The notes under the pieces: generated by a model
Told to the model about the DNA's origin: nothing
Seen by the model: only the letters and a program-made list of their open reading frames with translations
Databases searched by the model: none
From: an uncultured Pelagibacteraceae bacterium
Lineage (GTDB): Bacteria > Pseudomonadota > Alphaproteobacteria > Pelagibacterales > Pelagibacteraceae
Direction of reading: 5' to 3'
Assembly (NCBI GenBank): GCA_902629935.1
Contig: CACOSU010000004.1
Coordinates: 1 to 64,000, forward strand
DNA: 64,000 bases
In this document: positions 13,501 through 42,710 of the stretch, piece by piece
Layout: each line of letters starts with the position of its first letter
Position numbering within the stretch: position 1 is the stretch's first letter
Translations under genes and position numbers: made by a program

Positions 13501-14003
13501 AAATAAAATTTATCACCAGAAGTACTTTTAATTTTTCTATAAATCTCATCAATTTCATTAAATTTCCCTTTGTCAAACAATTTACCAAATAAACCAAATA
13601 CAGTTCCTGAAAATATTGCAACACCTTCAGAGTTTTTTAATAATTCTTCAAAATCTACGTGTGGGTCTGATAATTCATCGTTTTCTAAATACGAGGAAGA
13701 TGAAAGTAATATTATATTTTTATATCCAACTTCATTTAGAGCAAATAGAGGGAGTAAACCTATTGTTTCTCCAATTTTAAAATTAATTTGTGTTCCAATT
13801 ATTGGTTGTGTACCAGACTTGGATATCTTTTCAGCAAATTCTAGTGCACCACATAAATTTGTAGTATCACATAGGCCCAAGGATTTTAATTTATTATTTT
13901 TAGAATATGCTTGTAAATCATCAATTCTGGCTGCTCCTTCACAAATAGAATATTGAGTATGAATTTTAAGATGATTAAAGTTTTGTGACTCAGATTTAAG
14001 CAT
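10587..14003 (-). CDS. dnaE: DNA polymerase III alpha subunit
   Basis: DnaE is the replicative polymerase subunit. The 1138-aa protein has, in order: an N-terminal PHP domain (residues 8-200, beginning FNHLKIHTQYSICEGA), the polymerase core with PVGPGRGSGAGSLVAW and the catalytic MPDFDIDFCED, VATHAAGVVIA, ALYRPGPMSNIPTY, QEQVMQIAQKLSGFTAGQAD and GFNKSHAAAYAI, then helix-hairpin-helix and OB-fold regions. It ends near residue 1138 without the longest tau-binding tail seen in some relatives. It overlaps lolD by 8 bp. PolC and DnaE2 are excluded by domain order and the lack of an inserted exonuclease. Confidence 0.97.
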   Translation of the reverse strand: MLKSESQNFNHLKIHTQYSICEGAARIDDLQAYSKNNKLKSLGLCDTTNLCGALEFAEKISKSGTQPIIGTQINFKIGETIGLLPLFALNEVGYKNIILLSSSSYLENDELSDPHVDFEELLKNSEGVAIFSGTVFGLFGKLFDKGKFNEIDEIYRKIKSTSGDKFYLEIQRHNDKNEIEFEKYNLKKSFDLEIPIIATNEVFYVDKEMHEAHDALICIGNKTYINEKNRLRLSDQHYLKTDHEMSKLFSDLPEALENNYNFPLRCNYRPSFSNPILPNISSDKEGNADEILKKDSLEGLKVKFNKIFSLSNDELENNNSYKEYKNRLNHELSIIVEMKYSSYFLIVADYIKWAKNNDIPVGPGRGSGAGSLVAWCLSITDVDPIKFNLIFERFLNPDRISMPDFDIDFCEDKRDQVFEYLTTKYKDSVAHIITFGKLKARMVIRDVGRVLGLPYGFVDSISKMIPFDPSRPQNLTQCIAGEPRLQKLINDDPRVKKLIDLSLKLEGLNRNVATHAAGVVIADKKLTEIVPLYKDISSDLLLPSTQFDMYSAENAGLVKFDFLGLKTLTVINNTQKLVRKNIKDFDIEKISYEDQKVFDLMSTGKTVGLFQIESAGMREALVQMKPNHIEDIIALVALYRPGPMSNIPTYNDCKHGHQNPDYLHPLLEDILKPTYGVIIYQEQVMQIAQKLSGFTAGQADLLRRAMGKKKRAELEKQKQGFIAGAVKNGIAKDVAAGIFLKIEPFAEYGFNKSHAAAYAIISYQTAFLKTYYPKEFIAASMTMDISNQNKLSEFYEELKRLNIEIVRPDINECFADFRTINDKFYYALGGIKAVGYEAISNIVKERTLNGKFRSIHDFISRVNPKDINKLQLEGLVKAGAFDNLNTNRQTLFESIPSIIVKNKNKHDNKSTNQIDLFSEDENFQDNILIQTNDWKFEERLSKEFEAIGFFISDHPLNQFTDIFDDYKITNYSNFVSNEDLKDSNIAATLLKVHERKTAKGNSYAVLKLTDLSGVFELFVFSDVLELNREILKEGSSLILTLLKNISNDENRLTRINVQKIASLKDLFNSPINEASFNIQSTEQIKTISTFLKDEGKTIININLVTEDNIIKFTLKNTRKLDRKSLNLLRNQEIQAIIH

Positions 14004-39286: not shown

Positions 39287-40723
39287 TTACTTTTTGCTAA
39301 CCTTTTTTGTCTTTTTCGCTACAGGCTTTGATTTTGCCTTTTTAGTTGAAGGTTTTTTTTCTTTCGAAGATGATGTGGATGATTTTTTCTTAGTTTCTTT
39401 TTTTTCTTCTCCATGGCTATGTTCATGATCATGCTTATGAGCTTCTTTTAAAATCTTTTCCGCTTCCTCTTTTGAAATTTCTTTTTTATTTGCTTTGCCT
39501 TTTTCTTTAATTAAATTTAAAATTTTTTCCTCATATACGGTTCCTCTTAAACTTGCTAATGCAGATGGGTTTTTTTGATAAAAATCCATAACCATTTTTT
39601 CTTGTCCAGGCATCATTCTTAATTGTTTTTGTACTTCAGCTTGAATTTCTTGTTCTGTTACTTTAATTTGATTTTTTTCACCAAACTCGTTTAAAATTAA
39701 TCCAGTTTTAATTCTTGTTTTTGCTTTTTCTTCAAAGTCTTTTTTATTTTTCTTCGCTTCTCCTTCAGACATACCTTGTGAAAGAACTTTAACCTCTTCC
39801 TCAACTAGGTTTTCCGGAACTTCGTCTATTTTAATTTTTTCTATTTCTTTTAAGATTTGATTTTTAGATAATTGATCTAGAGAATTTTTATATTCATCAT
39901 TAATTTGTTTTGAAATTAAATTTTTTAAATCTTTTAAATCTTTTGCCCCTAAATTTTTTGCAAAATCATCATCAATTTTTACTTCTTCCGATTGTTTAAC
40001 GCTTAAAATTTTACAATTAAATTTAGCTTTTTTATTTACTAATTCTTTTTCAGGAAAATTTTCTGGCAGAGTTGCTTCAACAATTTTTTCATCATCTTTC
40101 TTAACTCCAATCAATTGATCGTCGAAACCTTTTAAGAATAAATCTTTACCCAAGGTTAGCTGCGTGTTCTTTCCCTCACTTCCTTTAAAATCCTTACCAT
40201 CAATTGTTGCTTTATAATCTAAAGACACTAAATCACCTTTTTTGGCTTTTGTATCAGCACTAACTTCTTTGAAATTTGGTTGGTTTTTAGCTATTTCTTT
40301 TATTCTTTTATCCGTTTCACTATCTTCAATTTTTACTGTGTATTCATCAAATTTAATATTTTCTAAAGATTTGATTTCTACTTTTGGTAACTCGGTAACT
40401 GATAGAACATATTCAAGATCTTTATCTTCACCGTATGTCTTTAAGTCAAGCTTCGGTTGACCTGCTGGTTTAATTTTATTTTCTTCTAGTGCTTTAGTTG
40501 ATGTTTCTTTTAAAACTTTATCTAAAACTTCTCCAAAAACTGCTTTACCAAACTGTCTTTTTAAAATTTCTTTTGGAACTTTGCCTGGTCTAAATCCTTT
40601 AAGATTTACACTGCCTTTAATCTCTTCATATTTTTCATCCATATAAGAGTTCATTGTCTCTTTATCGATAAAAACTTTAAGATCTTTATTTAATCCTTTT
40701 TTATTTTCTACTGTAACTTTCAT
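39287..40723 (-). CDS. tig: Trigger factor, ribosome-associated chaperone and prolyl isomerase
   Basis: Trigger factor binds ribosomal protein L23 and folds nascent chains. The 478-aa protein has the ribosome-binding signature GFRPGKVP near residue 44, the FKBP-type isomerase domain (about 150-235, [20 protein letters not shown]) and the helical chaperone domain to about 425. A C-terminal extension is unusual: a histidine cluster ([12 protein letters not shown]) and then about 40 Lys/Ser-rich residues. The start codon lies only 10 bp from the 3' end of a tRNA-Leu-like repeat at the prophage junction, so its transcription presumably comes from further upstream, now inside phage DNA. Confidence 0.96.
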
Positions 40724-40731
40724 AATATTTT

Positions 40732-40763
40732 AATGGTAGGGCGAAAAGGACTCGAACCTTCAC
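40732..40763 (-). repeat. 32-bp direct repeat, left copy: probable attL core
   Basis: This copy is identical over 32 bp to 40889-40920, the 3' end of the intact tRNA-Leu (T arm, acceptor 3' strand, CCA, two flanking bases). It ends 8-10 bp from the tig start. Identity stops abruptly to the right, as at an integration junction between host 3' sequence and phage DNA. The partner attR is expected outside the window. Confidence 0.75.
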
Positions 40764-40800
40764 ATGTTGCCATATTGGTTCCTAAGACTAACGCACGTCT
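40734..40800 (-). pseudogene. Diverged tRNA-Leu(UAG)-like relic at the phage end
   Basis: On the minus strand the relic keeps the anticodon-loop block AGTCTTAGGAAC (loop CTTAGGA, anticodon UAG), a GCAA-capped variable arm and the full T arm and CCA end. Its variable-arm stem is ATG/CAT where the intact tRNA has CTC/GAG, so both sides changed together. The anticodon stem TTAGT/ACCAA has one mismatch and no matching 5' acceptor strand is present, so it is unlikely to make a working tRNA. It looks like a phage-derived tRNA mimic joined to host tRNA 3' sequence. Confidence 0.6.
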
Positions 40801-40837
40801 CTAAACCTTGAACTACCAACACTCCTTTCTTCACCCA

Positions 40838-40879
40838 TTGTATCAATGAATACGTTTTTGTATCCATCATTGTATCCAT
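40838..40879 (+). repeat. Three TTGTATC(C/A)AT direct repeats: candidate integrase arm sites
   Basis: TTGTATCAAT (40838-40847), TTGTATCCAT (40858-40867) and TTGTATCCAT (40870-40879) lie in the same orientation between the two tRNA-Leu repeats. Tyrosine integrases of the lambda type bind short direct repeats as arm sites near the core. The repeats and their position next to core and integrase are seen; the role is inferred. Confidence 0.5.
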
Positions 40880-40888
40880 TTTTTGACC

Positions 40889-40920
40889 AATGGTAGGGCG
40901 AAAAGGACTCGAACCTTCAC
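40889..40920 (-). repeat. 32-bp direct repeat, right copy, at the 3' end of tRNA-Leu
   Basis: This copy forms the T arm and acceptor end of the intact tRNA-Leu and matches 40732-40763 base for base. The 157-bp offset between copies is too short for a whole element, so the intact tRNA is either carried by the phage or marks a second, older junction. Confidence 0.75.
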
Positions 40921-40975
40921 CTCTTGCGAGACCAGTTCCTAAGACTGGCGCGTCTACCAGTTCCGCCATCGCCCC
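40891..40975 (-). tRNA. tRNA-Leu (anticodon UAG), intact, between attL and integrase
   Basis: The 85-nt gene folds as a class II cloverleaf: acceptor GGGGCGA with TCGCCCT, anticodon stem CCAGT/ACTGG around loop CTTAGGA (anticodon TAG), variable arm CTC-GCAA-GAG, T arm AAGGTTCGAGTCCTT and encoded CCA. It is complete and has its own promoter. It lies 35 bp downstream of the integrase stop and points towards tig. UAG reads CUA and related leucine codons. Whether it is a host tRNA rebuilt at the junction or a phage-borne copy cannot be decided without attR. Confidence 0.96.
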
Positions 40976-40991
40976 AACTATTGATACGGAA

Positions 40992-41019
40992 GTTATAGAC
41001 ATCATTTTCTCTATTTCAA
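40992..41019 (-). promoter_or_regulatory. Sigma70 promoter of tRNA-Leu, overlapping the end of the integrase gene
   Basis: On the minus strand TTGAAA (41019-41014) and TATAAC (40997-40992) are 16 bp apart; the -35 box is formed by the last two sense codons of the integrase gene, just before its TAG stop. Transcription would begin near 40985, about 10 bases before tRNA-Leu, and could continue through the attachment region into tig. Confidence 0.6.
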
Positions 41020-42288
41020 CACCTTTCTACTATTGTGACCAATTAAAGATGATACTTCAGCTTTTTTACTTTTAGCTTTCTTGTATTCCTCTAATTTAGT
41101 TATAGCATTTTCAAGCACCTCGTTTGTACTATGCGTGTAGTACTGTAGTGTAGTTTCAATAGACTTATGTCCTGCTAAATGCTGAACTGCTTTTGGACTT
41201 ACATCAGCTTCTACTAACCTAGTAATAAAAGTGTGTCTTGTTGAGTAAGGCGTATACTCATCGCTTATACCTGATAACTTGATATACTTATCCCAGTTAT
41301 GTCTAAGAGAAGATTTAGATATAGGAAAGAAACGGTTGCCATCATTTTTCAAAGCAACTTCACGTCTTCTTTTTACTACTTCTAATGCTCTATTAGTTAA
41401 TGGAACTGTAGACCATTTACCAGTTTTAGGTCTTTTCAACGTCATAGTCTTTTTACCAAAGTCTATTTCATCAGGCGTAAATTTATTCAATTCGCCATCG
41501 TGTCGAAGACCTGTATCAATTGCAAAAACTATCACATCATACCAAAAGCCATCTTCACGTAGCTTACAAGTATCAAGTAATTGGTTTTCTTCTGCAATTG
41601 ACAGTGCAGGTTTAGGTTTACTTTCTGCACGTCTTTCATCTTGTATCCCAAAGTTTTTAGCACTTGGGTCAATACAATCATCAAGACTAAAAAGTCTTTG
41701 TTTGATTGCGAAGGACGTTAATTGTCTTAACAAACCTAAACGCTTGTTCACGGTATTAGTGCTACAAGAGTTATAATTATTCATTTTCTTTTTAGCTGAA
41801 TGAATAATCGCCCACTCTTTAAAGTCAGCTAAAGTAAATACATCGTGAAAGTCTTTAAGTTTAGGATTTAAATTATCCTTATCCTTAAAGAAATCTAATA
41901 TATCTTTAGCATAATTAGCAACAGTTTCACCGTGCTTACCTTTCCAAGTTTTCAGTCTTACTAAGTCTTGATAAAGATTATTGATATATGCTTCACCTAC
42001 AATCTTTACATTATCAGTAAGTAGAAAACTTCTACTTGCTAATCGTTGTGTCATTTGAGACTTCACCTTGATTGCTTTACCAAGTGCTTCCTCAAACTTC
42101 TCCAACTGTTTAGCGTCAGACATTGTATTATCAATATCTAACTTAACGGTTTCAGTAAGTCGTTTGGACTTCTTCTCACCGTCTACGTGATACTCTTTAT
42201 ACTTTGATACCCATAAAGTATTACCACGCCTTAGCGTTATACCTTTCGGTAAACTACTAAGGATTTTTTCTTCTACTGCTTTTCTCAT
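41011..42288 (-). CDS. int: Phage tyrosine integrase
   Basis: This integrase catalyses site-specific recombination between phage and tRNA-Leu attachment sites. The start is ATG 42288 (MRKAVEEKIL): it has AAGGAG 8 bases upstream and overlaps the preceding gene by ATGA, whereas the longer open frame begins inside that gene. The 425-aa protein has an N-terminal arm-binding domain, a core-binding domain (about residues 80-200) and a catalytic domain with Arg in DTGLRHDGELN, Lys in RPKTGKWSTVPL, YSTRHTFITR (Tyr replaces the usual His of HxxR), His in LAGHKSIETT and the nucleophile Tyr in LQYYTHS. It lies beside the attachment repeat, as expected. Confidence 0.93.
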   Translation of the reverse strand: MRKAVEEKILSSLPKGITLRRGNTLWVSKYKEYHVDGEKKSKRLTETVKLDIDNTMSDAKQLEKFEEALGKAIKVKSQMTQRLASRSFLLTDNVKIVGEAYINNLYQDLVRLKTWKGKHGETVANYAKDILDFFKDKDNLNPKLKDFHDVFTLADFKEWAIIHSAKKKMNNYNSCSTNTVNKRLGLLRQLTSFAIKQRLFSLDDCIDPSAKNFGIQDERRAESKPKPALSIAEENQLLDTCKLREDGFWYDVIVFAIDTGLRHDGELNKFTPDEIDFGKKTMTLKRPKTGKWSTVPLTNRALEVVKRRREVALKNDGNRFFPISKSSLRHNWDKYIKLSGISDEYTPYSTRHTFITRLVEADVSPKAVQHLAGHKSIETTLQYYTHSTNEVLENAITKLEEYKKAKSKKAEVSSLIGHNSRKVLK

Positions 42289-42710
42289 TTTATACTCCTT
42301 GCAGTTTTTAGTTGGTTCTCTATCTTCAACTTCGGCACATCTTTCCAATCTGACGTAGTTCCGATAAAGAGTTTTTGAAGTCTTCTTCCTGTTGGTGTTA
42401 ATTTAATCCAACTTAATCTTCTATTCTCGAATGGATTTACAACTCTTTCAACGAAACCTAGAGTATGTAAATCACTTACATTTCGAGATATTGAAGACAA
42501 GGAAATCACAACTCCAAAAAACTTGTGATACCATTCTCTTATAACCTGAGTGTTCAATTCCTGACCATCAGGTAAACAAGAGATTGTCTTAAATGTTAAG
42601 ACCAATTGTAATGGAATACCATTACCAAAAGTCTTTGCCTTAGACTTTGCTACTTCTTGCATAAACACTTTGTCAAAGTGAATATTACTTGTTGTGCAAC
42701 TGTAAGACAT
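42285..42710 (-). CDS. Winged-helix (MarR-like) regulator upstream of integrase
   Basis: The 141-aa protein has a helix-turn-helix at about residues 70-92 (VISLSSISRNVSDLHTLGFV), then a wing-like ERVVNPFENRRLSWIKLT and TPTGRRLQKLF, the pattern of MarR-type winged helices. The start has AAAGGAG 4 bases upstream. It overlaps the integrase start by ATGA, so both are made from one transcript and coupled. It could be an excisionase or lysogeny regulator; no recognised phage repressor lies elsewhere in the window. The fold is fairly clear, the role inferred. Confidence 0.6.
   Translation of the reverse strand: MSYSCTTSNIHFDKVFMQEVAKSKAKTFGNGIPLQLVLTFKTISCLPDGQELNTQVIREWYHKFFGVVISLSSISRNVSDLHTLGFVERVVNPFENRRLSWIKLTPTGRRLQKLFIGTTSDWKDVPKLKIENQLKTARSIK

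Follow-up and report, generated by a model that had tools for sequence, protein, structure and literature searches.

A T7-like prophage that splits the tRNA-Leu(UAG) gene of a Pelagibacteraceae host and very probably replaces it with its own copy

Results

Genes and features of the locus

The window analyzed here comprises 64,000 nucleotides from an uncultured Pelagibacteraceae bacterium. Read on the minus strand toward the gene for the host trigger factor (39287–40723, minus strand; Pfam Trigger_N, Trigger_C, and FKBP_C), which flanks the integration site, it presents in order an integrase gene, a complete tRNA-Leu(UAG), 102 nt of non-coding DNA, a short core, and the 3′ half of a tRNA-Leu. 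The integrase (41011–42348, minus strand; 445 aa), which adjoins the left attachment junction (attL), is a tyrosine recombinase recovered with Pfam PF00589 (E 1.5e-25) and as a PHROG integrase, and retains R282, R371, and the GHKSIETTLQYY box. The rest of a T7-like prophage occupies 42349–64000 (minus strand) and extends to contig position 77653; it codes for a terminase, tail fibre, internal virion protein, nozzle, and capsid within the window, and for a head-tail adaptor, DNA polymerase, primase/helicase, and a split RNA polymerase beyond it. The RNA polymerase consists of two overlapping open frames, for the C- and N-terminal parts (L003 10858–12528 and 12518–13504).

The complete tRNA-Leu(UAG) (40891–40975, minus strand; ARAGORN; Rfam 55.7 bits), the presumed replacement for a split host gene, is followed by the P arm of the phage attachment site attP, that is, the 102 nt from the tRNA to the core (40789–40890, minus strand), which is near-identical in the phage contigs L059/L060 and in the prophages L245–L247. 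This arm contains three copies of GATACA, putative arm-type integrase sites, at 40839–40844 (about −56 from the core), 40859–40864 (about −75 to −76), and 40871–40876 (about −87 to −88), all on the minus strand. They are matched by three inverted copies of the six-base motif to the right of the core, at about +98 to +122, and the phage tRNA sits just outside these putative sites. The letters of the motif vary with the phage group (GATACA, TGTTGC, GTTGCG, CTACGA) while its positions are mostly constant, and the layout of attP supports a predicted lambda-like mode of action for the integrase.

The left junction carries the 3′ half of a tRNA-Leu

The initial annotation had taken this junction for attL, with a left repeat running into a diverged mimic of tRNA-Leu(UAG). 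The attL label is correct and the repeat is genuine: 32 nt are identical between 40732–40763 and 40889–40920, within a longer repeat (D3) of 63 nt at 86% identity. Also present as described, on the minus strand, are the block AGTCTTAGGAAC and a GCAA-capped variable arm, ATG-GCAA-CAT, which differs on both sides of its stem from the CTC-GCAA-GAG of the tRNA at 40891–40975. A covariance-model search, which had been proposed as a check, gave 17.5 bits for 40737–40808 against a cut-off of 29, and ARAGORN found no tRNA in the junction sequence itself, only the separate phage tRNA nearby; the stretch is tRNA-like yet incomplete as a tRNA. Its resemblance to tRNA is far above chance, because it is 99–100% identical to the 3′ half of the complete tRNA-Leu of relatives. 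The span of 40732–40823 originally assigned to the mimic holds for 40734–40788 (minus strand), which begins with the core, in the anticodon loop, and ends with CCA at 40734; the remainder, 40789–40823, is non-tRNA sequence and belongs to the attP arm of the phage. The core itself, GTCTTAGGA, lies at 40780–40788 (minus strand), and the same 9 bp recur at the right junction (attR; contig C4 77654–77662).

The missing half lies at the far end of the prophage

Searching the host genome revealed a third tRNA-Leu-like place, where the prophage ends on its far side (contig C4 about 77654–77693), bordered by the gene for the phage RNA polymerase and, in the other direction, by one for a nitroreductase. 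In this attR, a tRNA-Leu 5′ half up to the core, whose 39 nt match the joined host gene at 100% identity, gives way to phage sequence that is not tRNA; the cores of attL and attR are 36,874 bp apart, which gives a prophage of 36.9 kb. Joining the 5′ half from attR to the 3′ half from attL at GTCTTAGGA yields a complete tRNA-Leu(UAG) by ARAGORN, with a perfect anticodon stem (TTGGT/ACCAA) and the ATG-GCAA-CAT variable arm. The proposed origin of the attL sequence in a functional tRNA-Leu(UAG) is borne out. Two candidate arrangements were ruled out: an exchange within the complete phage tRNA, since what follows the host 5′ half in attR is phage DNA other than tRNA, and a mini-element of 157 bp between the two tRNA 3′ ends, since the attR half lies 36.9 kb away.

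The same data bear on the classical form of tRNA integration, in which a partial tRNA in attP rebuilds the host gene and 40891–40975 would be the rebuilt gene. It has precedents in tRNA-Leu attP matches of tens of bases (e.g., 42–46 bp) in cyanophages and another pelagiphage (PMC8776855, PMC3861242). However, here attP shares only the 9 bp GTCTTAGGA with attB, the bacterial site within the host tRNA-Leu(UAG); the intact tRNA is separated from the core by 102 nt and lies on the far side of the arm-type sites; attR lacks the tRNA 3′ half and yields no tRNA by ARAGORN; and a functional tRNA is rebuilt at neither junction. We regard this reading as having practically no chance of being correct.

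As a separate observation, the host tRNA upstream region is retained at attR (L003 13693–13760), with a conserved TTGGAC and, after about 17 nt, a TATAAA-like element; in the lysogen it is directed at the gene for the phage RNA polymerase, with the 5′ half and the P′ arm in between.

Empty sites and host-specific halves identify the resident gene

A joined query of 108 nt retrieved three genomes of the same genus (G052, G058, and G022) at 100% identity over 106–108 nt, and in all three the host tRNA-Leu is uninterrupted and stands directly before the trigger factor gene. The rejoined site of 187 nt matches that of G052 at 183 of 187 positions, all four differences falling far upstream of the tRNA gene. 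Because an uninterrupted gene occupies the same locus in these genomes, the supposed relic at attL is the resident gene; more precisely, what had been called a mimic is its 3′ half.

Close relatives of the integrase (86–93% identical) were found in five Pelagibacteraceae genomes. Three of the related prophages (L245, L246, and L247, the first probably belonging to genome G056) are near-identical before the core and continue after it into three different tRNA halves, ACCAATAGAGCAATCT, ACCAATATGGCAACAT, and ACTAGTGCCGCAAGGC, each of which runs into the start of the trigger factor gene of its own host. In these prophages, the sequence before the core tracks the phage and that after it tracks the host. 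Core junctions of the same type occur in G056, G028, and G001 (in the last, attR alone was observed), so that related prophages do display the junction.

These results decide between two accounts of the variable arm. According to the initial annotation, the attL sequence is a diverged relic from another host or phage and 40891–40975 the local gene, a view consistent with the paired changes that distinguish the two tRNA sequences in their variable arms and anticodon stems. Against this, the half in question is 99–100% identical to the resident gene at the same locus in the same genus; its missing half is located at attR; and the tRNA at 40891–40975 occurs in phage contigs, while none of the 399 same-genus genomes searched yielded it at the native locus. 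Together, the empty sites and the three host halves behind near-identical phage arms refute this reading, which we consider highly improbable, and it is the gene at 40891–40975 that is foreign and phage-borne. The paired variable-arm change is nevertheless genuine and no product of decay. The ATG/CAT arm occurs in many host tRNA-Leu genes, and the host arm varies among relatives with its pairing retained, as judged by eye. What sets the two arms apart is that one belongs to a host tRNA and the other to a phage tRNA, and both tRNAs are apparently functional.

A tRNA-Leu(UAG) between integrase and attP is a conserved phage feature

A tRNA identical to 40891–40975 is present in the phage contigs L059/L060, and a tRNA-Leu(UAG) takes the same position, between integrase and attP, in HTVC011P, HTVC041P, and about 35 further phage contigs. 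In both HTVC011P and HTVC041P, the integrase gene is followed by a complete tRNA-Leu(UAG), a short copy of the core, and then the RNA polymerase gene; the last three are also present in the stretch of S30-C28 examined, which did not include an integrase. At 41 scanned loci from viral contigs, phages, and prophages, the exact core follows the tRNA-Leu(UAG) at a distance of 93–156 nt, and all 41 have an integrase (identified by profile searches) upstream and/or a T7-like RNA polymerase downstream, with both in 35; neither gene accompanies 95 of the 96 tRNA-Leu(UAG) loci without the core. These loci were gathered partly by phage-directed patterns and include a few duplicate contigs, and the counts are to be read as a measure of consistency rather than a survey.

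In the host assembly, which is about 90% complete and could lack a copy, no second tRNA-Leu(UAG) was found, and the only other leucine tRNA detected has the anticodon GAG. This bears on whether the main task of the phage tRNA is to support the translation of phage genes in lytic growth, with any use in the lysogen incidental. While tRNAs are common in lytic phages, the phage tRNA here has the isotype and anticodon of the broken gene, it stands beside attP throughout the group, and the broken gene is apparently single-copy; a predominantly lytic role is accordingly improbable, if less so than the readings weighed above.

The prophage of G028 has at the same place (L064:1694–1778) a tRNA-Leu(UAG) of quite different sequence, with the anticodon arm TACGC-CTTAGGA-GCGTA. 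Because the sequence is so different at the same place, these phages may have obtained a replacement tRNA on more than one occasion.

Discussion

By comparing sequences we show the split halves of a host gene, its empty site, a phage-borne tRNA, and a conserved layout, and we interpret the junction, with high confidence, as attL of a 36.9-kb T7-like prophage that splits the host tRNA-Leu(UAG) gene and would replace the lost function with its own copy. In the mechanism we propose, the integrase would recombine the 9-bp core GTCTTAGGA of attP with the identical 9 bp that the host tRNA-Leu(UAG) gene has at its anticodon loop, the exchange probably taking place in or at the 7 nt of that loop, CTTAGGA. 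The host gene is split as a result, leaving its 5′ half at attR and its 3′ half at attL, and the phage tRNA-Leu(UAG), presumably expressed in the lysogen, would take over the lost function and sustain the cell. By analogy with experiments on mycobacteriophages (PMC10865867), the lysogen would rely on the phage tRNA; excision would restore the host gene.

The same site, trigger factor flank, and replacement by the phage's own tRNA have been described for HTVC011P, HTVC025P, and uv-Fonsiphage (Chen 2019, PMC6811365), and the locus is another clear example of a strategy already published for related phages. Members of group III of HTVC019Pvirus (HTVC011P, HTVC025P, uv-Fonsiphage-EPL) likewise use the host tRNA-Leu(TAG) beside the trigger factor gene, replace the split gene with their own tRNA-Leu, and in most cases have an RNA polymerase in two parts; the core is similarly short, 11 bp as reported for uv-Fonsiphage-EPL and 9 bp here (PMC6811365). 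With its T7-like gene set, integrase, own tRNA-Leu, and site beside the trigger factor gene, the present prophage has the traits of group III. It differs from the described members in host and phage species, and relative to that account both host halves, the empty site, and the host-specific halves behind near-identical arms are made explicit here.

More broadly, the locus would be a case of tRNA-dependent lysogeny, with a broken host tRNA that is apparently single-copy and a replacement predicted to come from the phage. The concept was defined in actinobacteriophages, its reach beyond them being posed as a question (Guerrero-Bustamante and Hatfull 2024, PMC10865867); the text of that paper contains no word beginning with "pelagi". 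The actinobacteriophages Fionnbharth, LeBron, and Gaia (myco- and others) resemble the present case in a core of about 8–11 bp within a host tRNA gene, in junctions neither of which rebuilds the tRNA, in a phage tRNA of the same isotype, and in a lambda-like integrase with arm-type sites (PMC10865867). They differ in that the phages considered here are T7-like podophages of SAR11, and in that the need for the tRNA was established experimentally there and is inferred here (PMC10865867). The T7-like cyanophages P-SSP7 and S-TIP37 also combine an integrase with an attP at a host tRNA-Leu; unlike here, their attP exactly matches a region of the tRNA gene, and the part of that account used here mentions no complete replacement tRNA and reports that stable lysogens were not found (PMC8776855). 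The present locus adds a computational case from SAR11 to a mechanism whose describers sought examples outside the actinobacteriophages. It also offers a guide to reading such loci, in that a whole tRNA next to an integrase may be viral, and the fragment may belong to the host. To read some leucine codons the cell would seemingly need a viral gene, and that need would keep the prophage in place.

An inverted repeat around the attP core

The core of attP is flanked by an inverted repeat, the 5′ arm of which, GGAGTGTTGGTA, lies at 40814–40825 (minus strand) and the partner, TACCGACACTTC, at attR just left of contig C4 position 77654 (L003 about 13640–13652). The left arm runs outward from −26 of the core and the right arm from +2. 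The arms pair at 12/12 positions in this phage (G-U allowed) and at up to 23 in others, and they co-vary across phages. With the ungapped register fixed by the core, since MAFFT gapped the repeat in one clade, 83% of the cells across 11 phages pair, versus 39–50% with one arm slid by 1–3 nt. Swapping arms between phages reached the observed pairing in 0 of 2000 trials. Mismatches comprise 27 G-T versus 7 A-C under a scoring that treats the two alike, an excess that leans toward pairing in RNA, on the int strand. Because the sequences are related, none of these figures is a strict probability; pairing is poor in HTVC011P and L192.

Integration parts the two arms, and we entertain, as a speculation that is more probably wrong than right, that the attP hairpin, which has the int-tRNA unit to one side and the RNA polymerase gene to the other, is a switch responding to the integration state. 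With the hairpin split in the prophage, RNA read out of int and the tRNA would not be the same as in the phage; in principle, sib retroregulation of the lambda int gene would be a parallel.

Separately, almost all phages examined have a run of 6–8 T at 56–58 nt past the core (L003 about 13584–13600 in this phage), and folding places a stable hairpin ahead of it in this phage and some others. A scan for consensus terminators gave no match at attR; hairpin and T-run may be a terminator, or a structural or bend site of the integration complex.

Phage-type tRNAs in relatives

Phage-type tRNA patterns match 5 of 399 same-genus genomes, two of which (G000 and G056) are prophage carriers; in the other three (G033, G150, and G424), neither an integrase nor an RNA polymerase was found near the tRNA gene. 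In each of the latter, the native locus is occupied by a phage-type tRNA-Leu(UAG) (L231:5029–5112, L232:9544–9629, and L241, respectively). Here a phage copy may have supplanted the host tRNA for good, or equally these hosts may be the donors, and the three genomes prompt the question of whether permanent replacement of host tRNA genes by phages occurs. All three have the order host-type upstream (promoter) region, phage-type tRNA, a scar with inverted fragments of the tRNA 5′ half, and trigger factor; the scar of G150 additionally contains a T-run and arm-like motifs.
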